Positions 16,758 to 28,279 of a DNA stretch of 33,081 bases are shown here, one piece after another (positions within the stretch are counted from its first letter, which is position 1; each line of letters starts with the position of its first letter). Source of the stretch: Planktothrix paucivesiculata PCC 9631 (GTDB lineage: Bacteria > Cyanobacteriota > Cyanobacteriia > Cyanobacteriales > Microcoleaceae); NCBI RefSeq assembly GCF_900009265.2, contig NZ_LR735029.1, positions 147,069 to 180,149 on the forward strand. Direction: 5' to 3'. Position numbers and translations under genes: made by a program. The notes beneath the pieces are model-generated. The model searched no databases. It saw only the letters and a list, made by a program, of their open reading frames with translations, and was not told the DNA's origin.

Positions 16758-17849
16758 ATGTTAAACAGTATAATCGAACAACTGAAGTTAGTCAAGGATT
16801 TTCGGAAAAATCGTGGTAAAAGACATGAATTATGGGTAGTGTTGACTATCATTGTTTTAGCACTGCTAACTGGCAATGTTACTTATAAGCAAATAGATAA
16901 TTTTAGAAAAAATGAAGAAAATAAGCTAATTAAATTATTAGAAACTAACACTAAAAAATTGCCGTCTTATAGTACCATAAGACGAGTAATGCTCGGAATA
17001 AATTCAATAGAAATTCAGTTGGTTTTTCAGTCAATAGTCCAGGAATATTATTGGCAACAAGAAGGCGTTGATTGGATTGCGATCGATGGAAAATCTTTAA
17101 AAAACACCCTGACTAACTATGAAAATCAGAAACAAAATATGTTAATTATGGTATCTTGGTTTAGTCAAGAAACAAAGTTAGTAATTAAATCGGAAAGTTT
17201 TGAAAGTAAACAAAGTTCTGAAAACGCTAAAGTTCTGTCTATGATAGAAAAATGCGGGTTATTAAATAAAGTATTTACCCTCGATGCTCTCCATTGTAGT
17301 AAGGAAACAACTCAGGCAATAATTGAGAGCAAAAATAATTATTTAATTACGGTAAAAGGGAATCAAATTAAATTGCACAATCGGATCAAGATTTTAGCAG
17401 AAATCGAAAAACCTTTAACGGTATATGAAGAAAAAGATGTCAGTCATGGGCGAAATATTAGCAGAAAAGTATCAGTATTTGATAGCCAAAATGTCAACCA
17501 TAAAAATTATCCTCATCTTCAAAGTTTTATTCAGGTAGAAAGAACGGGTTTTCGGGGTGATCAAGAATATAATGAGACTTTATATTATATTAGTAGTCAG
17601 AAATTAAGTGCGAAAACATTTGCAGAAAAAATTAAAGCACATTGGTTAATTGAAAATCAAGTACATTGGGTCAAAGATGTGAATTTTAATGAAGATAAAT
17701 CAAGAATAAAAGGCATAGACGTAGCCGGAAAATTCTCGTTATTAGTAACATTAATTTTGAATATATACAGAAGTTTGGGTTTTAGCTCAATAAAAGAGGG
17801 ACAGTCATGGTTGGGAAATAATTGGGAAAAGATTTTAGCGATCGCCTGA
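16758..17849 (+). CDS. ISAs1-family transposase
   Basis: A 363-residue DDE transposase, a normal full length for the ISAs1 family. The catalytic triad is visible: Asp110 in AIDGKSL, Asp176 in TLDALHC, and Glu299 in HWLIENQVHWVKDVNFNEDKSR. The N-terminal YSTIRRVMLG segment is also typical. The frame is intact and all catalytic residues are present, so it may be active. Codon use is very AT-rich compared with the pseudopilin gene just upstream. I could not define the terminal inverted repeats with certainty. No Shine-Dalgarno precedes the ATG, and a stable hairpin lies directly upstream, which suggests low expression. Confidence 0.9.
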   Translation: MLNSIIEQLKLVKDFRKNRGKRHELWVVLTIIVLALLTGNVTYKQIDNFRKNEENKLIKLLETNTKKLPSYSTIRRVMLGINSIEIQLVFQSIVQEYYWQQEGVDWIAIDGKSLKNTLTNYENQKQNMLIMVSWFSQETKLVIKSESFESKQSSENAKVLSMIEKCGLLNKVFTLDALHCSKETTQAIIESKNNYLITVKGNQIKLHNRIKILAEIEKPLTVYEEKDVSHGRNISRKVSVFDSQNVNHKNYPHLQSFIQVERTGFRGDQEYNETLYYISSQKLSAKTFAEKIKAHWLIENQVHWVKDVNFNEDKSRIKGIDVAGKFSLLVTLILNIYRSLGFSSIKEGQSWLGNNWEKILAIA

Positions 17850-19452: not shown

Positions 19453-20289
19453 TTAGGAAGCCGCTTCAATCCGACCATAGAAGACACCCCGAACTTTCAC
19501 ATCCAAGGATTCCTTTGCACCCAAATCATCATCAGAAGGCTGTTCACTTTCAAAAATTCCAGCCACTTCTCCAGTTTCGCCGTCAATTTTAGAAACCTGT
19601 AAAGAAATCTGACCCGCTTTAACCTTGGTATCGGCTAACTTGACATTAGCAGTGCTTAAATCGGCTCCGTCGGCGGTGGCAGGTAAAGCAACGGCGTTGT
19701 CATAGCCAGCATTCACCCCACGGGCTTTAGGATCTAAGAAGTTGGCGCCTCGATAGGAAGGAACGTTAAAATCTCCCCGTAAATCGGTAGAAGTGTTAAT
19801 ACTGGATAATCCGGGCTGGGAACTGGCCACTAACCCTTTAACCGTGAATAAGAAGGGAACTTCTTCACCACCGGGTAATAAAACCGTAATCGGTTGGAAA
19901 TCCATGCCATCTTTTTCTTTAAAGGTGAGTGTCCCATCGGAACCCACCAGCAGGTTGCCAGTAATTTGATCTAAGCTATAGGTGAATCGGGTTAATAGAC
20001 GACCCGGAACAAATTCAGCTTCTTTGCGTTTATTGGTGGATTCTTCCTTGACAAAATAGCTGGTAGGTTGCAGACACAAACCACTGATACTGTAGGACTT
20101 ACCACCATCAATCGGAATAGAACCCCGGGCGGTTTCGGGCAAAGTTGGACAGTTTACAGCTAATCCTGTATTTCTAATGTCATCATAGGTCAGTAGCTTG
20201 GGATCTTTAGCTTCTGGGCCATCAGAACAGGCTGTAAGTACAGTTAAACAGATTGCTAATAGTGCAGCAACCAAAGCGCGATATCTCAT
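19453..20289 (-). CDS. psbO: photosystem II manganese-stabilizing protein PsbO
   Basis: PsbO is the extrinsic lumenal subunit that stabilises the oxygen-evolving manganese cluster of photosystem II. Diagnostic segments are LTYDDIRNTGLAVNCPTL and GLCLQPTSYFVKEE (the two cysteines form the conserved disulfide), EAEFVPGRLLTRFTYSLDQI, DFQPITVLLPGGEEVPFLFTVKGLVASSQP, FNVPSYRGANFLDPKARG and the C-terminal GVFYGRIE. The ATG at 20289 (GAGGTTG upstream) gives 278 residues and starts MRYRALVAALLAICLTVLTACSD. The signal peptide ends in a lipobox (L18-T-A-C21), so the mature protein may be a lipoprotein, unlike the cleaved soluble form of Synechocystis. An upstream in-frame ATG at 20325 is rejected because it lies in a repeat-like hairpin. 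Confidence 0.96.
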   Translation of the reverse strand: MRYRALVAALLAICLTVLTACSDGPEAKDPKLLTYDDIRNTGLAVNCPTLPETARGSIPIDGGKSYSISGLCLQPTSYFVKEESTNKRKEAEFVPGRLLTRFTYSLDQITGNLLVGSDGTLTFKEKDGMDFQPITVLLPGGEEVPFLFTVKGLVASSQPGLSSINTSTDLRGDFNVPSYRGANFLDPKARGVNAGYDNAVALPATADGADLSTANVKLADTKVKAGQISLQVSKIDGETGEVAGIFESEQPSDDDLGAKESLDVKVRGVFYGRIEAAS

Positions 20290-20811
20290 TGTCAACCTCA
20301 AATATGCAAAATTGATATTTGACACTCCGCCCTGTAAAGAGAGGCAGATTCTTTAAGACTTGCTTAAAAGGGATAGTCAAATATCCCCCTGGACACTCAA
20401 AACAACTATCAAAAAGATGCTGCTATTGCGCTTATTTGTACCATTTTTTGGCTTTCCGAGTCCATCACCATGCCAATTTGGTACGCTCCGCGTTTTTCCG
20501 TTACTTGCTTGCTCTGCGGCTACAACTTTGTAGGGGCGAGGCAAGTCAGGGGTTACTCCTTAAAAAACACTTCTTCGCGTAGATGGTTATTCTTACTTGC
20601 TGCCCATATTTTATCATTTCTGAGGGCAGTTCAAACTGCGGTGAGTCGTTTTTACTCCTTGAAGCTCAAGCCGCCGGGCTTGCCAACTCCGGGTTGATTT
20701 CTCGTGAGTCTTTTTCCGACGTACAAATTCTTCAACGATCAGTTAAACTACTTAAGTTAATTTACCGATCGCGCTCTCTGCGGGAGTGTTCGGTATTGAT
20801 GGATTTGAATT
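20290..20811. other. 522-bp psbO upstream region with hairpins
   Basis: No convincing gene on either strand; open frames here have no protein-like features. Besides the orphan end at 20318-20355 there is a 6-bp perfect hairpin (CAAGCC, GCCG, GGCTTG) at 20667-20682, and GTGAGTC occurs twice around it. The region may be the decayed body of a transposon and must also contain the psbO promoter, which I cannot locate. Confidence 0.45.
20318..20355 (-). mobile_element. orphan IS200/IS605-like right end next to psbO
   Basis: Read on the plus strand the order is TTTGACACTC, stem CGCC, loop, stem GGC, GATTCTT. This repeats the plan of the right end of the tnpB element at 24511-24557 (GTTGACACTC, stem-loop, GATTCTT). 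No tnpB reading frame is left to its right, so it would be a solo end or a relic. Its outer border is 28 bp from the psbO start codon. Confidence 0.5.
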
Positions 20812-21165
20812 ATGGACAATCCCACTAAATTTGATTCACAAGCTTGCTCAAATCAGCTTGAATTTTTAGCAGAAAAGGTTTTAACCTTAGCCCAGACCGC
20901 CGAAGGAAATACCCTGGAGATTTTGGCGATACTCAGAATTTTAGAACAGTTACATCAGAATGTTCGAGAGAGTTTATTTCAGCAATCTTTACCGGATAAT
21001 CGTCAAAAACTCTATCATTTATTACGAGAGATTGAATCGAAAGGAGGCTGGCCCTATATTCCTCGGAGTTCGATAAAAGCTCTGATAGAAAATTTGCAGA
21101 AGGAATCCCCAGAAGTGTCCGAGGAGTTAGGAAAAGATGGTGCGGGAGATCAAAAGCAAGATTGA
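20812..21165 (+). CDS. small conserved hypothetical protein, 117 aa
   Basis: No family recognised with confidence. The protein looks fully helical and soluble: residues 12-60 form an amphipathic stretch rich in Leu, Ile and Glu (LEFLAEKVLTLAQTAEGNTL), followed by a conserved-looking GGWPYIPRSSIKALIENLQ and a charged tail. The start ATG at 20812 lacks a Shine-Dalgarno sequence. The gene ends one base before the convergent trpF stop codon, so the two transcripts must share a termination zone or overlap. Confidence 0.6.
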   Translation: MDNPTKFDSQACSNQLEFLAEKVLTLAQTAEGNTLEILAILRILEQLHQNVRESLFQQSLPDNRQKLYHLLREIESKGGWPYIPRSSIKALIENLQKESPEVSEELGKDGAGDQKQD

Positions 21166-21816
21166 TTAATGGGTTTTCAATTCCGAGAAAAAAGCCGAAA
21201 TTGTTTGAAATAATTGGTTAACTTTTGCCAAATCTTTATCCCCCGGAGAACGTTCAAGGCTACTGGAAAGATCAATACCATCGGGTTTTAACTGTTGCAA
21301 TGCTTCCCCAATATTATCCGGGGTTAATCCTCCGGCTAAAAACCAGGAACAGGGGGGAGAAAACGGCTTCAAAATTTGCCAGTCCAATCTTTGACCCGTC
21401 CCTCCCAACTGTTGCGGATGATAAGCATCTAATAATAGGCTATCGATATGATTAAAATAGTTTTGGGCTTGAATTAAGGTGGCTGGAGATTTAATCCGTA
21501 GGGCTTTTATAAGTTCTATATTAGGAAGAATTTGACGCAGGCGATCGCAAAAATCAGGAGATTCATCCCCATGAAGTTGTACACCGGTTAATCCCGTTTC
21601 CGTGACCGTTTGATAAATTTCCTCCACACTCACATTTGCAAATACACCAATGGTTTGAATCGAGTTCGGTAAAATCTCTAAAATCCTGGAAATTTGCTCC
21701 GATGTGACGTAACGCGGGGAAGCACGAACACAAATAAATCCTAACATTGTCGCTCCCAGTTGGGTGATCGCATAACCTTGATCCGGTTGAGTAATGCCAC
21801 AAATTTTAATTCGCAT
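21166..21816 (-). CDS. trpF: phosphoribosylanthranilate isomerase
   Basis: TrpF converts phosphoribosylanthranilate to the carboxyphenylamino-deoxyribulose phosphate in tryptophan synthesis. The 216-residue protein is a typical (beta-alpha)8 barrel: catalytic Cys6 in KICGIT, general acid Asp130 in [15 protein letters not shown] (residues 78-86), and phosphate-binding AGGLTPDN and GIDLSSSLE near the end. Length is standard and it is not fused to another trp enzyme. No other trp gene is nearby, as usual in cyanobacteria where trp genes are scattered. It lies convergent with the small gene before it. Confidence 0.95.
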
Positions 21817-22052
21817 TGATGCTTTTGAAGTTGAGTTGACGGCCTGATCTAACTAGACAATTCTGATCAGGATTTTACAATAATTATAGCAACCGCCCCT
21901 AAGAATTAGGACATCAACTTATGCTCAAATCAATCGGGTGCATTCTGCCTATTCCCTATTCCCTCTTATATTAACTTTTTCAACAAATTAGGAGTTTTTA
22001 ACATCAGATTTTTATAATCAATGATTGAAATTAAGAAAATCGTCAATTGTTC

Positions 22053-22058
22053 AGGAGA
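22053..22058 (+). promoter_or_regulatory. ribosome binding site that sets the psaK start at TTG
   Basis: AGGAGA stands 8-9 bases ahead of TTG 22067. The upstream in-frame TTG at 22025 has no such site, and the downstream ATG at 22088 is too far away from it. Confidence 0.7.
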
Positions 22059-22066
22059 ATAAAAAC

Positions 22067-22348
22067 TTGATTTACACTTCCTTACTGATGTCAATACAAA
22101 ATAATGTTCCCGCCACCGTTACTTGGTCTCCGAGTGTAGCCATTGTGATGATTGTCTCTAACCTATTGGCAATTTTCATCGGTTTCTATGCCATTTCCAA
22201 AGAAAATCGCGGCAAAGGGCCGAGTTTGCCCGGTTTACCCCGGATGTTTACCGGGTTTGGAATTCCTGAATTATTAGCCACTGCTAGTTTTGGACATATT
22301 TTAGGGGCTGGGGTAATTTTAGCATTAGGAAACGCTGGGGTTCTTTAA
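22067..22348 (+). CDS. psaK: photosystem I subunit X (PsaK)
   Basis: PsaK is a small peripheral photosystem I subunit with two membrane helices. Seen here: VTWSPSVAIVMIVSNLLAIFIGFYAI (first helix), the conserved loop KENRGKGPSLPGLP, and GIPELLATASFGHILGAGVILALGNAGVL (second helix and end). From the TTG at 22067 it has 93 residues, close to the family length. It begins MIYTSLLMSIQNNVPA, which may include a short cleaved presequence. Only one psaK is present in the window. A long hairpin separates it from the convergent gene at 22415. Confidence 0.92.
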   Translation: MIYTSLLMSIQNNVPATVTWSPSVAIVMIVSNLLAIFIGFYAISKENRGKGPSLPGLPRMFTGFGIPELLATASFGHILGAGVILALGNAGVL

Positions 22349-22357
22349 ATACCCCTC

Positions 22358-22409
22358 GTAGAGACGTGCCCGAGCGCAGCGATGCCGTAGGCTATTGGCG
22401 CGTCTCTAC
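22358..22409. terminator. long hairpin between convergent psaK and next gene
   Basis: Arms GTAGAGACGTGCC (22358-22370) and GGCGCGTCTCTAC (22397-22409) match with one mismatch around a 26-base GC-rich loop. It lies exactly between two convergent stop codons and may stop transcripts from both sides. The GTAGAGACG arm is a type of dispersed repeat seen in cyanobacteria. Confidence 0.6.
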
Positions 22410-22414
22410 CCTGA

Positions 22415-24469
22415 TTAATGAATGGGTAAAGAAGGCCCTGGAGGGGGATTAACCGAACCTGCAATCGTGATTTTGTTGCTTTCTCGTTGGGTTTGCATTT
22501 CCACCGCGATCGCTTCAAATAGGACTTCCAAACTACTGTAAGGAATTTCTAAATCAAGGGTTGTTTCAATTTGATCAAACCCATTCGGTGAAAATTCCGT
22601 TAACCAACGGGGGCCATCAACCACGGTACGGGTTTGCCGATCAAACAGCCAAACCTTGACATAAATTCGGGGTAAACCATCGGGAAGTCTCACCCTGAGT
22701 TTAACTAAACGTCCGGCAATAATTTCTGGTGATAATACCTCAAGTTGAGGGTCTGGAACCGATTGATCTTCGGGTAAAACATAGGAAACCGGTTGATTTG
22801 TGGGCGGGGTTTCCGGTTTAATTCCCTTACTATTTTTACGTCGAGGGAAAAATGCCCCGGGGGATTCTAAAGGTTCATCATCAACTACAATTTCTTCTAA
22901 TTCTTCCTGGGCATTGATCACTTCTGGGTATGGCAAAGGTGCTGTATCCGATGAATTGGGTTCAGAACGTTTAACAATATTACTTGCAGCATTAAATGGA
23001 ATTTCCGGTAGGGGATTAACATTCGCCCGTTTTACCCACTCTGACCACGACCGATCCCCCGCTAAAGCATTCAGCCGTGACCAAAAGCGATTATTCAAGT
23101 CTAAGGCTTGAAAGGCTTCTTGAACCTCTGGATCGGGTTTCGGTTTAGCGATGGGGTCAAGTGGCCCAATCCCATCTGTCCCCGAGATCGATTCTAACGA
23201 ATCCCCGATTAATACCGGTGAAACAGAAGTTGAAAGATCCGTAGATGTTGATTCCCCCTGGGAGGACACAATCCCAGGAGCAGGTTTTGGGGGTAGCTCA
23301 ACCTCTTGAACTGGGGGGCTTTGGCCAAATATCGGCAAATCTAGGGAAGCAGCAGGTCGGGATTCAGCAGCTAGAGGATTGAGTTTGGGCGGAAGCACTG
23401 TAGGGGTTTCCGGGGTGAACGCTTCAGCCCTATTCTTGTTATCAGTCCAGTCGGGCAATTCCAGAACTCCTAGATCTAAAGCCGAAAGGTCGGGGAAGTC
23501 TTCTTGATCCAATTCGGGACTAAAACCTTGATCGATCGCTTCTAAAAGATGTTCTACTTGGGTAACAACGTTAAAAGATTGGGTCGTCACCCCAACCCCC
23601 TGATGGGAAAAAATTACTTCCCCTAAAATTAAGCGGGTTTTACATTCAAAGGGAATATAAACCACACCGGAAAAAAATAGGGGGAAGTCACAGAAGGTAA
23701 GGGTTTGAGTGACATCAAATAAGGGTTCTGCGGTTTGGGGGTCGCGTAGGCGAAATTGCAATTGTCCCTCTGTCAGAACAGGGGCAGTAGAAGACAGGGT
23801 AGCCGTTGGCAGTTCCACCTGTCCCGACAGGATTAAGGCTTCTCCCAAACGGCCCACAAAGGAATCTTGTTCTAGGACGATGTGCAGAGCATTCAGTAAA
23901 GTTTCTACCGCATCCAGGGTTTGGGGAGATGCTTCGGGAGTCTCCACAACCGAAAGCGGTGGCTGGGTTGGTTCTGGAACGATAGGTCGGCCAGAGGTCG
24001 GGAACGCTACAACGTTAGAAAACTGTTCCGTTGGGGGTTCAACAACTTGAGATTCTGTGGGGATAATATTAGCCGTTGGGGGTTCGGTATCCTCAAAAAA
24101 TTGATCAAATTCTTCTGCTTCCGAGGGGAGAACCCGCAATTGTATCGTTTTTTTGCCCACGGTTGCTAATAACCCAGATGTCAGTTGAGGAGCGCAGGAA
24201 AACTGCCAATTCCCGGGTTTGAGGGACGTATAAGGCATCACCACCATCAAACCTTCAGCATTAGTGGTTAGTGTCCGATTTTGAACCTGTTGGACGGGGG
24301 GAACCGCATCAAAATCTTGATAGATAATCCGAACATCAATTGAAGTGTTTGTATATCCAGATCGGGCTACCATCCGGTAGCGCCCTTCTAAAATCTCAAC
24401 ATCGGGGGATTCTAAGGTTAGCCAACTGTTATCCCCTTCTTTTTGTAGTAGAAACTCCCAACTTGCCAT
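22415..24469 (-). CDS. large Pro-rich conserved cyanobacterial protein, 684 aa
   Basis: Function unknown. Residues 1-115 form a beta-rich domain (MASWEFLLQKEGDNSWLTLE, then LEGRYRMVARSG and LKPGNWQFSC). An acidic, proline-rich linker follows to about 175, a second folded part (about 185-320, VETLLNALHIVLEQDSFVGRLGEALILSGQVEL, then CDFPLFFSGVVYIPFECKTRL), a long disordered Pro/Ser/Glu section to about 560, and a final beta domain (LSPEIIAGRLVKLRVRLPDGLPRIYVKVW). There is no signal peptide or membrane helix. WSRLNALAGDRSWSEWVKRANV near 465-490 is a likely conserved helix. The layout suggests a scaffold, but that is inference. Its start is 41 bp from the right end of the tnpB element, which probably separated it from its original promoter. 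Confidence 0.7.
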   Translation of the reverse strand: MASWEFLLQKEGDNSWLTLESPDVEILEGRYRMVARSGYTNTSIDVRIIYQDFDAVPPVQQVQNRTLTTNAEGLMVVMPYTSLKPGNWQFSCAPQLTSGLLATVGKKTIQLRVLPSEAEEFDQFFEDTEPPTANIIPTESQVVEPPTEQFSNVVAFPTSGRPIVPEPTQPPLSVVETPEASPQTLDAVETLLNALHIVLEQDSFVGRLGEALILSGQVELPTATLSSTAPVLTEGQLQFRLRDPQTAEPLFDVTQTLTFCDFPLFFSGVVYIPFECKTRLILGEVIFSHQGVGVTTQSFNVVTQVEHLLEAIDQGFSPELDQEDFPDLSALDLGVLELPDWTDNKNRAEAFTPETPTVLPPKLNPLAAESRPAASLDLPIFGQSPPVQEVELPPKPAPGIVSSQGESTSTDLSTSVSPVLIGDSLESISGTDGIGPLDPIAKPKPDPEVQEAFQALDLNNRFWSRLNALAGDRSWSEWVKRANVNPLPEIPFNAASNIVKRSEPNSSDTAPLPYPEVINAQEELEEIVVDDEPLESPGAFFPRRKNSKGIKPETPPTNQPVSYVLPEDQSVPDPQLEVLSPEIIAGRLVKLRVRLPDGLPRIYVKVWLFDRQTRTVVDGPRWLTEFSPNGFDQIETTLDLEIPYSSLEVLFEAIAVEMQTQRESNKITIAGSVNPPPGPSLPIH

Positions 24470-24510
24470 TTCCCGCCTCTATATTAGGTGGTTTTTCGTC
24501 TCTCCAATAT

Positions 24511-24680
24511 GTTGACACTCTCACCGTTAAGCCTTCGGCTGTAACGGGAGATTCTTGCTTAATGACACTTAACTAGCTCAAACAGTGTTAACTGTTCAAA
24601 CCCCGCCAGTACGTCTGACCCGATTAAGGGTACTTCACAAGCATTTTCGCTCACGGTATGCCCTACCGCAATTAAGCCTC
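24511..24680 (-). ncRNA. predicted omega (guide) RNA of TnpB
   Basis: TnpB proteins work with an RNA from the 3' end of tnpB through the right end of the element. On the minus strand, the region ends with AAGAATCTCCCGTT, a loop, AACGG, TGAGAGTGTCAAC. The stem is 24524-24533 with 24537-24547. TCAAC at the border resembles the TCAAT right cleavage site of ISDra2. The next bases outside (24491-24510, minus strand) would be the guide segment. The 5' end given here is a rough guess. Confidence 0.5.
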
Positions 24681-25800
24681 TATTTCTAATTACTTTAGCA
24701 CTAGCTATGTCTCTTGGTTCTGTATGACCACAATACTGACAATTATGCACTCTTTCACTTAATTGCTTTTTGCCAGTATGTTTTCCACAATGAGGACACT
24801 CTTGAGATGTACCATTTTTATCTACTTTCAAATAAAATCTATCTCTTTTCCAGCAGACATAAGGTAACACCTGATTCATAAATCCACCTATCCCTGAGTC
24901 TAAAGATGGCTTCCTGACAATCCCACGACTCCAAGATGTGTAATTGATGTCCTCTATGAATATATTTTCTGCTAAGTCACACAGATTATGAGCTAGTTTA
25001 AAATGCCAATCTTTCCTTGTATTAGAGACTTTTTCATGTAATCTTCCTATTTTGTTTTGCAATTTTAACCCATTGTTTGACCCCTTAGTTTTATGTTTTA
25101 AGCGTCTTTGTAGCGATTTCAGCTTACTTTGTGCCTTTAACAAAAACTTCGGTGCTTTGATTAATTCGCCTGTACTTGTTGCCACAAATGATTCAATACC
25201 CGCATCTAGTCCTAAACTATTTTTCCCTATTGGTATATCAGGACATACCTCTTCTGACTGAAACACAATTAGTAAATAATATCCACTCGCTTTTTTTACA
25301 ATCCGAGCTTGCTTGGGCACAAAACCCGTGGGATATTCCCTTGACTGTCTAATCTTCAACCAGCCTAATTGGGGTAGTTTTATCTTGCCTGTTGCTAAAC
25401 AATTTTTTAACATAGCTGGAAAAACAAAACTACGCATTTTCTTTTTATATCGAGGAAAACCACGACCTTGAGATTTCATTTCAGTAAAGGCTTTATCTAA
25501 TGTTTTCAACGTTTGTTGTAACACTTGAGCATTGACTGACTTTAAATCCTGATTATTTTGTTTGGCTATAGTTAAATTTTTGGCTTGTACATTGTAATTG
25601 GGGTAAGGTTGCTCCGATGGGATAATGTATTCTGACACAATTGAACAACTATTAACAGGTGATTTCCTACTGCGTAACCAGTGCTTACGTTCAACCAAAG
25701 CATAGTTATAAACAGACCGACAGACATCTAAGATATGCTCTATCTCTAACTCTTGCCGTCTGTTTAAATCTAACCTGAACTGATAAGTAAGATTAATCAC
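24559..25800 (-). CDS. tnpB: RNA-guided endonuclease TnpB
   Basis: A 413-residue TnpB, full length, of the family from which Cas12 enzymes arose. The RuvC nuclease residues are all present: Asp199 (LGLDAGIE), Glu283 (IFIEDINY) and Asp364 (EPRDIASAKVI), with a four-cysteine zinc finger in between (C335/C338 and C354/C357). The N-terminus (MINLTYQFRLDLNRRQ) is typical. TnpB cuts DNA at sites matching its omega RNA next to a short motif, helping the element persist. Translation starts at GTG 25800, with no strong ribosome binding site. A consensus promoter lies just upstream. The frame is unbroken and the catalytic set complete, so it may well be active. Confidence 0.93.
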   Translation of the reverse strand: MINLTYQFRLDLNRRQELEIEHILDVCRSVYNYALVERKHWLRSRKSPVNSCSIVSEYIIPSEQPYPNYNVQAKNLTIAKQNNQDLKSVNAQVLQQTLKTLDKAFTEMKSQGRGFPRYKKKMRSFVFPAMLKNCLATGKIKLPQLGWLKIRQSREYPTGFVPKQARIVKKASGYYLLIVFQSEEVCPDIPIGKNSLGLDAGIESFVATSTGELIKAPKFLLKAQSKLKSLQRRLKHKTKGSNNGLKLQNKIGRLHEKVSNTRKDWHFKLAHNLCDLAENIFIEDINYTSWSRGIVRKPSLDSGIGGFMNQVLPYVCWKRDRFYLKVDKNGTSQECPHCGKHTGKKQLSERVHNCQYCGHTEPRDIASAKVIRNRGLIAVGHTVSENACEVPLIGSDVLAGFEQLTLFELVKCH

Positions 25801-25837
25801 TGGCTTTCATTGATTTTTTTGTGGCATTTTTGTATTC

Positions 25838-25866
25838 ATTATAAACTTACTAATTAATCCTGTCAA
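25838..25866 (-). promoter_or_regulatory. consensus sigma-70 promoter for tnpB
   Basis: On the minus strand TTGACA (25861-25866) and TATAAT (25838-25843) are both perfect hexamers with a 17-bp spacer, the ideal arrangement. Transcription would start near 25831 and leave a leader of about 30 bases before GTG 25800. Confidence 0.75.
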
Positions 25867-25888
25867 CTAATTATCATAAAAATTGACT

Positions 25889-25907
25889 CAATATCAAGCT
25901 GATATTG
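25889..25907. repeat. 8-bp palindrome upstream of tnpB
   Basis: CAATATCA (25889-25896), loop AGC, TGATATTG (25900-25907). It may be the subterminal hairpin of the element's left end, which transposases of this group recognise as single-stranded DNA. An operator role ahead of the tnpB promoter is another option. Confidence 0.5.
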
Positions 25908-26028
25908 TTTTGTTACTATTAAGTGTTTATCTTAACTACAACTTAAACGACTATGTGTAAAACCACAAATCTTCTGAAGAATAAGGTATGGCGATCGCCA
26001 TGTTTTTTATTGGCAAAAATTCATCTCG

Positions 26029-26052
26029 CCGTTAACCTTTCAGGTTGAACGG
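26029..26052 (-). repeat. second copy of the tnpB right-end hairpin
   Basis: Plus strand: CTCG, CCGTTAACCT, TTC, AGGTTGAACGG, GAG. The tnpB right end reads CTCA, CCGTTAAGCC, TTC, GGCTGTAACGG, GAG. Orientation is the same, and the changed bases in the stem are matched by changes in the opposite arm. It lies about 230 bp upstream of the tnpB start codon. Confidence 0.7.
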
Positions 26053-26104
26053 GAGTCCTCTTTTTACATTACAGATAGCGGAATTGGATGGCATCAAAAC
26101 AGAA

Positions 26105-26219
26105 GGAGGCAGGAGGCAGGAGGCAGGAAGAATTAAGAATCGAGAATTAAGAATCAAGAATCAATCTTTTTTCTTTTTTCCGGTGTTCTTTCTACCTTCT
26201 GTCCCCAGCCTCCTGTCTT
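26105..26219. repeat. short tandem repeats and inverted repeat downstream of apcC
   Basis: GGAGGCA occurs three times in tandem (26105-26125), followed by a repeated AATTAAGAATC (26131-26157) and a T-rich stretch. The sequence GCCTCCTG near 26209 can pair with CAGGAGGC of the tandem part, so the region may fold into a hairpin and stop apcC transcription. I see no gene in it. Confidence 0.55.
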
Positions 26220-26423
26220 CTACAGCAATCCGGCGTTAGTTCCGGGCTTGCCCGTTGCCAGTTCCACTTTAACAATTTTACCGCCCATTTTCATGATCCG
26301 TTGTTGTTCTTTAAACCAACTGTCATAGGGAACTAACTTAGTAAAGTAGGTATTTTGTAATTCCCGTTGGGTACGAATCCGGCTTTGACTTGGAACACAA
26401 GCTGTGACTTTAAACATCCGCAT
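26220..26423 (-). CDS. apcC: phycobilisome core small linker ApcC
   Basis: The 67-residue ApcC (Lc7.8) sits in the central hole of allophycocyanin trimers at the ends of the phycobilisome core cylinders and tunes their spectrum. The sequence MRMFKVTACVPSQSRIRTQRE, with TKLVPYDSWFKEQQRIMKMGGKIVKVELATGKPG, is diagnostic, and length is normal. It is the last gene of the apcA-apcB-apcC group, 224 bp behind apcB. AGGAG lies about 12 bases before the ATG. The long apcB-apcC gap holds an inverted repeat that may lower its expression relative to apcA and apcB, as this linker is needed in smaller amounts. Confidence 0.96.
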   Translation of the reverse strand: MRMFKVTACVPSQSRIRTQRELQNTYFTKLVPYDSWFKEQQRIMKMGGKIVKVELATGKPGTNAGLL

Positions 26424-26480
26424 GAGGTTCGTCTCTCCTAAGCAAATTTAACAAGTTTTACATCAATTTTAAAATGCTCA

Positions 26481-26580
26481 AAGGCCGGGAGTCGGGAGTC
26501 AATCCTAGCTCGCTAAAACTTATCAGGAAAACAGACAAGCCTTTGGCGGTCTAGCATTCACTCCAGACTTCCCTGGCCTT
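26481..26580 (-). promoter_or_regulatory. imperfect hairpin between apcB and apcC
   Basis: Plus-strand AAGGCCGGGAGTC (from 26481) pairs imperfectly with GACTTCCCTGGCCTT (26566-26580). On the minus strand this lies 67 bp past the apcB stop codon. Partial termination or processing here would give much apcAB mRNA and less apcABC mRNA, as known for other cyanobacteria. Confidence 0.5.
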
Positions 26581-26647
26581 GAAGATCGTTGAGATTTCGG
26601 ATAGGGAATCAAACGCAGTGATCACCCTCAAAAATCTAACCTCGGTT

Positions 26648-27133
26648 TTAGCTTAAGCCAGAGGAGATATAGTCAAAGTAAATACCCATTTCTTTGCCAG
26701 CATCAGCACCGACTAAACTAGCGGTAACTTCTTTGATGGCTTGGATGGCTTGCACGGTAGAACCGATGGGTACACCCAGGGAGTTGTAGGTTTCTTTCAA
26801 ACCGTTGAGAACGCGCTCATCGAGAATGGAAGGATCGCCAGCTAACATTGCATAGGTAGCATAACGCAGGTAGTAGTCTAAGTCGCGGATGCAAGCGGCA
26901 TAGCGACGGGTGGTGTACATATTTCCACCGGGACGAGTTACGTCAGAGTACAGCAGGGATTTGGCTACTGCTTCTTTGACGATGCTGGCTGCGTTAGCAC
27001 TAATGGTGGAAGCAGCACGAACCCGCAGTTCGCCAGTGGCGAAGTAGGCTTTTAACTTTTGCAGGGAGTTGGCATCCAGGTACTTACCCTGAACGTCAGC
27101 AGAATTAATTACGGAAGTAATGGCGTCTTGCAT
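26648..27133 (-). CDS. apcB: allophycocyanin beta subunit
   Basis: ApcB pairs with ApcA to form the alpha-beta monomers of the phycobilisome core, which pass excitation energy to the photosystems. The 161-residue protein has the phycocyanobilin-binding Cys81 in [16 protein letters not shown] and Asn71 in GGNMY, the site of the usual N-methylation of beta subunits. The sequence starts [20 protein letters not shown] and ends [10 protein letters not shown], standard for the family. It is 68 bp behind apcA on the same strand. AAGGA lies about 12 bases ahead of the ATG. No oddities seen. Confidence 0.98.
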
Positions 27134-27201
27134 GATTGTTCTATTTCCTTGTAGTCGCTGAATCTAGGAATCGTTTAAAAAATGTGATAAAGCGATCGGA
27201 C

Positions 27202-27687
27202 TTATGAGAGCGCACCGATCACATAGTCGAAGTAAGCTGCGGCTTCGGCTGCATCTTCACCAGATAACAGACCTGTGGCAACACTCTTCAGCGCACGAAT
27301 TCCTTCGGCAACGGCTTCAACGGGAGTACCCAGAGATTTGTACATTTCCCGAGCGCCAACGATCCCAATTTCTTCGATGGGGGTAATATCGCCCGCAACG
27401 ACTCCATAGGTGACCAGACGCAGGTAGTAGTCAAGGTCGCGTAAGCAGGTAGCGGTCATTTCCGGGCCATAGGCGTTACCAGCAGGAGAAACCACATCAG
27501 GGCGTTTCTGGAACAGTTGGTTTCCAGCTTCTTTGATGATGCGTTCACGGGCACCGCTCACGGTTTCGGCGATGCGCAGACGACGCTCACCAGAGGTAAC
27601 AAAGGCTTTGATCCGGTCTAACTCACCAGGGCTGAGGTAACGCGCTTCGGCGTCGGCATTAACAATGGATTTTGTGACGATACTCAT
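27202..27687 (-). CDS. apcA: allophycocyanin alpha subunit
   Basis: ApcA is the alpha chain of the phycobilisome core pigment protein. The 161-residue sequence is full length with chromophore Cys81 in [15 protein letters not shown], start [22 protein letters not shown], and end [11 protein letters not shown]. It heads the apcA-apcB-apcC unit. apcE, which precedes apcA in many cyanobacteria, is absent here; a non-coding region and a divergent ADP-ribosylglycohydrolase gene are found instead. The long upstream region contains a possible promoter 139 bp ahead. Strong expression is expected, but no strong Shine-Dalgarno is visible before ATG 27687. Confidence 0.98.
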
Positions 27688-27760
27688 TTTCTACAAAAGC
27701 GTTTAGCTAACGTTTTCCTGATTGACGCTCTCCCGAAAACCCATTAACTGAGTTGGAGAG

Positions 27761-27778
27761 CCTCATCGTTACCGATGA
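27761..27778 (-). promoter_or_regulatory. small hairpin in apcA leader
   Basis: CTCATCG (27761-27767) and CGATGAG (27772-27778) are perfect arms around the 4-base loop TTAC, about 75 bases ahead of the apcA start codon. A short stable stem of this kind could protect the leader of an abundant mRNA; this role is inferred. Confidence 0.4.
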
Positions 27779-27825
27779 GCGTTCAGTGCTGGTTCAGACA
27801 CATTCTGGATCAGGTGATGACATAG

Positions 27826-27854
27826 AGTGTATCTGGTTTTTGATCCGCAATCAA
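27826..27854 (-). promoter_or_regulatory. possible apcA promoter
   Basis: Minus strand: TTGATT (27849-27854), 17-bp spacer, TACACT (27826-27831). This would give an apcA leader of about 130 bases. Neither hexamer is perfect and other promoters further upstream are likely. Confidence 0.35.
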
Positions 27855-27942
27855 ATCCATGGGTTTAAGATTTTCATTGCTTCACTTCCTGCGGGTTTGT
27901 ACCCTCAAAGATGTTTCAGCTTTTTTAGGTACAGTCCACAAG

Positions 27943-27980
27943 TTTGATATTCTCCACTGGCTTTTCGGCTGTGGATTCCC
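27943..27980 (-). mobile_element. orphan IS200/IS605-like right end upstream of apcA
   Basis: Plus strand: TTTGATATTCT, stem CCAC, loop, stem GTGG, ATTCCC. The same plan as the tnpB right end (TTGACACTCT, stem-loop, GATTC). The minus-strand sequence further inside (to about 28060) has several short GC stems (for example GCCCGAAAGGC) and could be what is left of an omega RNA or of a tnpB 3' end. No tnpB frame remains. Confidence 0.45.
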
Positions 27981-28279
27981 AGACTGCTGCCTTTCGGGCT
28001 ACAGTTATGGGGCGACCAGCTTTGGACATTAATTTGCCCATTACCGTCACTACCTATCGCTTGTATTTTCAGGCATGGAGTACACATTCTGAACCATGTT
28101 GTAATAGTTTTTAACATTACCAGGTGTCGAGGGTTGACGGTTGAGGTGTTGGCGGTTGAGATGTTAATGTTTTTAAATCGGGTTCTGAACTTTTTTTTTC
28201 GAGGATTGATCAGCAAATTAATCGGTTTTAAAATAACGCTCAACGTCTTTAATGTTTGAATATAAAATTACCCCTAAAC

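Follow-up and report, generated by a model that had tools for sequence, protein, structure and literature searches.

We conclude that the hairpin-bearing sequences beside psbO and apcA in Planktothrix paucivesiculata PCC 9631 are very probably relics or mini-elements of IS200/IS605-type transposons and not conserved regulators. The stretch analyzed, hereafter the window, comprises 33,081 nucleotides of contig NZ_LR735029.1 (positions 147,069 to 180,149; G000:C110:147069-180149) from a 6.15-Mb draft genome that is 97.5% complete. It also holds a tnpB element with an end of the same plan, and the three sites are the right ends of three different IS200/IS605-type subfamilies. Comparison within the genus (ten genomes, G000 to G009, of which G000 is the window's own) revealed insertion borders, subterminal hairpins, empty sites, shared short targets without target duplication, reduction to ends, dispersed copies, and homology of the guide-RNA scaffold.

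RESULTS

All three right-end motifs, located by pattern search and folding, lie on the minus strand in the same orientation: that of the tnpB element at 24512-24554 (a hairpin followed by GTGTCAA), one beside psbO at 20319-20351, and one in the apcA upstream region at 27944-27978. The initial annotation of this DNA had placed them to within about one base, and its observation that they share an orientation and turn their outer borders towards start codons holds: the outer edge lies 42 bp from the start of the next gene (22415-24469) at the tnpB end, 29 bp from the psbO ATG at 20289, and 256 bp from the apcA start at 27687 (41, 28, and 255 bp in that annotation). The landmark genes psbO (19453..20289; Pfam MSP) and apcA (27202..27687; NCBIfam allophyco_ApcA, above cut-off) are both on the minus strand. 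By itself, the motif TTGAYAYTC is weak evidence, with four occurrences in the window and 1.6 expected; the full plan (TTGAYAYTC, 10 to 34 nt, GATTC) is matched three times, and in 200 dinucleotide-shuffled versions of the window it appeared 0.04 times on average and never more than once. No Rfam family matched anywhere in the window at gathering thresholds.

The psbO site is uninterrupted, reading TTTCAC/ATATCAATTT (the slash marks the border), in 5 of the 10 congeners (G002, G003, G005, G006, and G008). A window-type end stands at exactly this border in G000, G004, and G007, and a different mini-element, with left and right hairpins recognized by eye, occupies it in G001 and G009. The empty sites fix the psbO-side border of the window element (20319..20705, minus strand); its left border, which the initial annotation had not recorded, was placed by eye at about 20705. 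Five further copies of the G001-type mini-element, longer than the copy at psbO, are present in G001, and the left flank is TCAC at all six sites of this type, psbO included. In a psbO-plus-apcA tree of nine genomes (G006 and the outgroups were lost from it), a support of 0.99 separated the five carriers of an element at the psbO site from the four noncarriers. Because each of the two element types is closer to copies of its own type elsewhere than to the other, two separate insertions at one TCAC are likely, and the replacement of one element by conversion is possible.

Relatives of the window-type psbO element are dispersed. One lies in G008, 29 bp upstream of an exported-protein-like gene; another, in the window's own genome, is flanked by rpsU and an RNA-binding-protein-like gene; and a third was found in another genus of the same family (G025; L035:1501-1638, minus strand), 223 bp upstream of petB, which encodes cytochrome b6. 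The psbO element has the features of a palindrome-associated transposable element (PATE), namely no coding gene, IS605-type ends, a precise insertion polymorphism, and dispersed copies, with the right border and the related copies established and the left border of the window copy judged by eye only. Beyond the genus, the same pattern found an end directly upstream of psbO in only 3 of 80 named loci, all 3 from the Planktothrix group; 3 of the 80 loci (L286, L311, and L341) have less than 300 bp of upstream sequence. As a separate observation, the psbO upstream regions of the seven congeners without the window-type element (L024-L030) carry an older CCTCGTGTCTTTAGATCGAGGAG-type hairpin that by eye resembles a decayed right end.

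The tnpB gene belongs to a tnpB-only IS200/IS605-type element of 1563 bp (24512..26074, minus strand), inserted 3' of CTAT. Seven relatives (G001, G002, G003, G004, G006, G008, and G009) have a precise empty site, which reads CCGCTAT/CATATTGG in G001 and G009 and differs slightly in the others; the element is present in G007, in a comparison that took in all relatives but G005. Its product, TnpB (24559..25800, minus strand; 413 aa), matches Pfam OrfB_IS605, Cas12f1-like_TNB, and HTH_OrfB_IS605 and, when aligned to a solved TnpB-like nuclease, keeps D199, E283, and D364 together with two CxxC motifs, the RuvC residues and zinc finger that characterize an IS200/IS605-type TnpB. The element carries no tnpA and so lacks a Y1 transposase for its own mobility. 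It has subterminal hairpins at both ends and a fixed short target on the left without target duplication. The left-end hairpin (26025..26055, minus strand), which was absent from the initial annotation, was found by folding; it gave a weak model match (9.6 bits, E 0.55) and is shared with a gene-less 437-bp copy on contig C184 (L119, L257). That copy has the same ends as the tnpB element, CTAT at its left, and inside it sequence related to the 3' region of tnpB; CTAT is the target at both of the two copies with a tnpB-type left end. A second copy of the tnpB element, on contig C133, has an internal deletion. The window also contains a transposase gene of another kind (16758-17849; DDE_Tnp_1 with DDE_Tnp_1_assoc).

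The apcA copy (27944..28012, minus strand) consists of a truncated right end and a scaffold remainder and is orthologous, at the same place, in 8 of the 10 genomes. Because the copies in G002 and G003 contain approximately 90 extra internal bases that can be aligned to the guide-RNA-like part of ends linked to tnpB (L210, L217, L232, and L244), the window form is a truncated remainder. The right end is clear; the left end is lost or was not identified. G006 and G008 are without the relic; their right end is a different one, placed 153 bp from the start of apcA at a site (ATCAC/AAAGCAG) that G002 and G003 have uninterrupted. Since G008 is sister to G002 and G003 on the psbO-plus-apcA tree, an old insertion followed by loss in the G006/G008 lineage would be the simplest history. 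In the window's own genome, pnp is immediately preceded by a relative of the apcA end (L255), and by eye, an end-like sequence is present in the apcA upstream region of another genus (G026). The initial annotation had proposed strain conservation as a check on these sites; the apcA copy is present in most congeners, and half of them have an uninterrupted site at psbO.

Several other features of the apcA upstream region were noted. A hairpin ending GAGAGYGTCAA near the apcA start was considered as a further right end and rejected, since by eye other family members have it with a different stem; it is taken as part of apcA's own leader. Within the proximal leader (window 27690-27850), a hairpin has changed on both sides, from CTCATCG-GTAA-CGATGAG to CTCAGAG-GTCA-CTCTGAG or the reverse (by eye). 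A block at 28049-28118, alignable in various other genera within the same family and order, is probably a promoter region.

A covariance model (R1) was built from the tnpB end of the window and 15 related ends, none from psbO; with 4 base pairs only, it is mostly a sequence model, and it represents the tnpB-end subfamily alone. The covariance search that the initial annotation had suggested succeeded for one copy and failed for the other: R1 found the psbO end at 20319-20400 (24.9 bits, E 2e-4) and did not find the apcA copy in the window at E values up to 10, as expected because that copy belongs to another subfamily. Scores were 51-55 bits for two copies in the window's own genome (L249 and L250) and 45.8 bits for the apcB-apcC copy of G008 (L059). 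Scaffolds homologous to the 3' region of tnpB-linked elements are thus found in L249, L250, L257, and the apcA copies of G002 and G003, and weakly at psbO. The suggestion that these sites are kept as guide-RNA-like elements was consequently half right, in that several solo copies are homologous to the tnpB-linked guide-RNA region; its other half, that the host keeps them, found no support. For the 16 nt that follow the psbO and apcA ends, no exact match other than themselves was found in the window's own genome; matches with two mismatches numbered seven for psbO (control, six) and one for apcA (control, none).

Such ends are common in these genomes: matches to GAATC-N(14-34)-GRRTRTCAA numbered 58 in the window's own genome (6 to the reversed pattern), 116 in G001 (0), and 60 in G009 (1). 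A census of four genomes reduced 177 hairpin sites to 156 insertions, of which 111 were solo and 45 lay beside tnpB; the 156 still hold at least one orthologous pair (L215, L256). The stretches were picked from listings and comprised 40 from G009, 31 from G000 plus the window, 56 from G001 (from the listed part of its 116 pattern matches), and, for G006, the loci of the first 30 of 69 matches to a narrower pattern; pattern hits without a hairpin were mostly left out, sites folding more weakly than -1.4 kcal/mol were dropped by the script, and genes were open reading frames of at least 110 aa, without curated calls. Most gene names were assigned by reading N termini, and profiles were used to check psbO, apcA, psbB, petB, plastocyanin, pnp, rpsU, the L211 gene, and the L219 pilus gene.

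A bias of right ends towards start codons was considered and rejected. Between genes of the same direction, solo ends lay in sense 33 times and in antisense 28 times (P = 0.61), and the ends linked to tnpB did so 7 and 10 times (P = 0.63); a first count at 44 solo sites of G000 and G009 had given 13 versus 10. Within 350 bp, 48 of the 111 solo ends face a start and 44 a stop. Given these numbers, facing a start codon is ordinary for such an end.

Of the solo ends, 48 face a start no more than 350 bp away, and 4 of these lie at psbO, apcA (two separate insertions), or psbB, an informal count without a background rate in which two of the four had prompted the search. The psbB case is a solo right end 39 bp upstream of the gene, which encodes CP47, in the window's own genome (C133; L246:2850-3072). 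Left ends face the starts of 44 genes at distances of up to 900 bp; these genes include plastocyanin (L387) and an allophycocyanin alpha-like gene (L211), the latter scoring under the cut-off of the NCBIfam ApcA profile. A script run on apcA-centered stretches from eight genomes (including psbO in four) reported 12 right ends, every one in the sense of the genes; G002 contributed none, and the established apcA relics of G002, G003, and G004, likewise in sense, escaped it. Between apcB and apcC, the spacer measures 435 bp in G008 (L131:2447-2881) and 283 bp in G006 (L132:2599-2881), and the insertion of approximately 152 bp in G008 contains little beyond guide-RNA-like scaffold between hairpins. 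Its relatives are dispersed in G000 and G006, and because 8 of the 11 among those listed share extra sequence on the left, the G008 copy may have been shortened.

The apcA relic was also compared with its surroundings. In seven comparisons, identity to the window was 72-96% for the relic, 74-93% for the spacer that follows it, 81-97% for the promoter-like block before the relic, and 84-96% for third codon positions of apcA; the proximal leader stood at 89-99%, a strong conservation across eight congeners. The relic evolves about like the neighboring spacer. In the structure predicted for the relic, 88.2% of cells pair, compared with a shuffle mean of 86.3% (reached by 29 of 500 shuffles), the covariation score was reached by 40 of 500 shuffles, and the number of pairs changed on both sides was reached by 215 of 500; compensatory change therefore does not stand out from shuffled alignments. 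Folding against shuffles gave a z score of -2.6 for the tnpB end and -0.7, no better than shuffles, for the psbO stretch. Simple scans found no terminator-like site near psbO or apcA, and the idea of an attenuator was rejected for that reason.

DISCUSSION

These data are consistent with a transposon origin of all three ends. We propose that the tnpB end closes an intact tnpB-only element, that the psbO end belongs to a non-autonomous mini-element, and that the one at apcA is what truncation has left of another. Such elements most likely moved as single strands by means of a Y1 transposase (TnpA) supplied in trans, which would insert them 3' of a short target without duplicating it: CTAT for the tnpB subfamily and TCAC for the mini-element subfamily seen at psbO in G001. 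The hairpin and the terminal TCAA would form the TnpA substrate, and the sequence upstream of the hairpin would correspond to the TnpB guide-RNA scaffold, its use as guide RNA being presumed. The initial annotation had itself raised the possibility of relics of lost elements, and the empty sites, the longer or other forms in relatives, and the dispersed copies bear it out.

Five observations weigh against this conclusion. Among the ten congeners, there is no known precise empty site for the apcA relic, since its absence from G006 and G008 may reflect loss. The relic exceeds the spacer in identity in five of the seven comparisons, equals it in one, and falls below it in one, which is a slight excess, and it folds better than most shuffles (z -2.0; 4 of 200). 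The seven insertion events that we infer around apcA-psbO (the old apcA type, the apcA end of G006/G008, one 614 bp upstream of apcA in G003, the apcB-apcC copy of G008, the tnpB element, and two at psbO) share the orientation of the genes, for which the two-sided chance is approximately 0.016 if each orientation has a probability of one half, a value that was calculated after the fact and depends on the number of events inferred. Finally, a profile search of the window's own draft genome for the Y1 transposase (PF01797) gave no match, and no mover was therefore found, whereas each of the nine other genomes of the genus gave between 2 and 19; because of this difference, the copies in the window's genome may now be stranded.

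Could the host nevertheless have kept these hairpins as leaders that regulate psbO and apcA, for example, by stabilizing mRNA or through RNA-guided repression, as the initial annotation suggested? The persistence and good fold of the apcA relic, the presence of another end nearer to apcA in just the two genomes that are without it, and the ends before psbB and petB would fit such a role, and we found no evidence for it in the comparisons of the ten congeners and the census. The psbO site is uninterrupted in half of the congeners, and ends precede psbO at very few of the 80 named loci; the apcA relic has diverged at about the pace of the spacer and more quickly than the proximal leader; pair counts are near those of shuffles; the orientation of ends shows no bias; and simple scans for terminator-like sites and a search for a second exact match to the 16-nt flanks found none. 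We regard host-kept regulation as very unlikely. That the hairpins merely resemble transposon ends by chance has almost no probability: the short motif alone is indeed expected more than once per window, but the full plan is not, the apcA end has a longer homologous form, and for psbO, the clean insertion polymorphism with uninterrupted sites excludes chance.

It can also be envisioned that photosynthesis-gene leaders are homes of mobile guide-RNA genes. Solo elements inserted in sense before apcA, apcC, psbO, and psbB, and before petB in another genus, would borrow the host promoter and be cotranscribed with the downstream gene; TnpB acting in trans would process guides from the leader and cut element-free chromosome copies, so that the element is held in the polyploid cell and spreads. 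Leader ends could make flank-derived guides as in ISDra2. Scaffolds are kept in solo copies (L249, L250, L257, the G008 apcB-apcC copy, and the apcA copies of G002 and G003), the TnpB of the window keeps its catalytic residues, and all 12 end rows in the psbO-apcA stretches are in gene sense; published work describes a TnpB guide with approximately 16 nt of flanking DNA (PMC8612924) and TnpB drive on multicopy plasmids (PMC11870625). However, there is no sense bias among the 111 solo ends, the psbO scaffold folds no better than shuffles, and the TnpB of the window belongs to a subfamily other than those of the psbO and apcA ends. We therefore consider this scenario unlikely, and the all-sense insertions and the ends before psbB and petB stay odd.

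With transposon-derived ends as the preferred explanation, ordinary IS200/IS605-type insertion accounts for solo TnpB-type ends beside photosynthesis genes, and both filled and uninterrupted sites are supplied here. For annotation, the lesson is that relatives should be checked before such hairpins are read as regulatory leaders. The scaffold-bearing mini-elements and the all-sense insertions from apcABC to psbO make it directly testable whether, in a bacterium that carries many copies of its chromosome, host leaders serve as a source of guide RNA for TnpB acting in trans. Guide-RNA-bearing elements without tnpB have reportedly been studied in Geobacillus.

Several known systems invite comparison. 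No paper containing both tnpB and psbO was found in the open-licence PMC literature, which is not to claim that none is in print. IS200/IS605 is the commonest insertion sequence (IS) family in Planktothrix (30%; PMC9366434), and the elements described here fit that picture, with its several TnpB groups; neither "mite" nor "solo" occurs in the main text of that paper, whose relevant passages describe things other than non-autonomous ends. TldR proteins, which are TnpB-derived RNA-guided repressors (PMC13418256), likewise combine a TnpB-related protein with a guide RNA; unlike TldR-like regulators, in which nuclease residues are lost, the TnpB of the window keeps D199, E283, and D364, and no regulatory target was found. 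In ISDra2, the right-end RNA uses flanking DNA as the guide, and the proposed role of TnpB is to cleave the empty site once it has been re-joined (PMC8612924). The window element resembles ISDra2 in the placement of its guide-RNA region, at the right end and the 3' end of tnpB, and in keeping its target at the left; it differs in lacking tnpA and in its target, CTAT rather than TTGAT, and the psbO and apcA copies are without tnpB. PATEs, the ends-only derivatives of IS605-type elements described in Haloquadratum (PMC3119063) and Halanaerobium (PMC7290912), share with the ends reported here subterminal hairpins, the absence of a target duplication and of a transposase gene, an IS605-type origin by loss of the core, and presumed movement in trans. 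Unlike the PATEs of those reports, several solo copies in Planktothrix keep a guide-RNA-like scaffold, and they sit in the leaders of photosynthesis genes in a cyanobacterial host.

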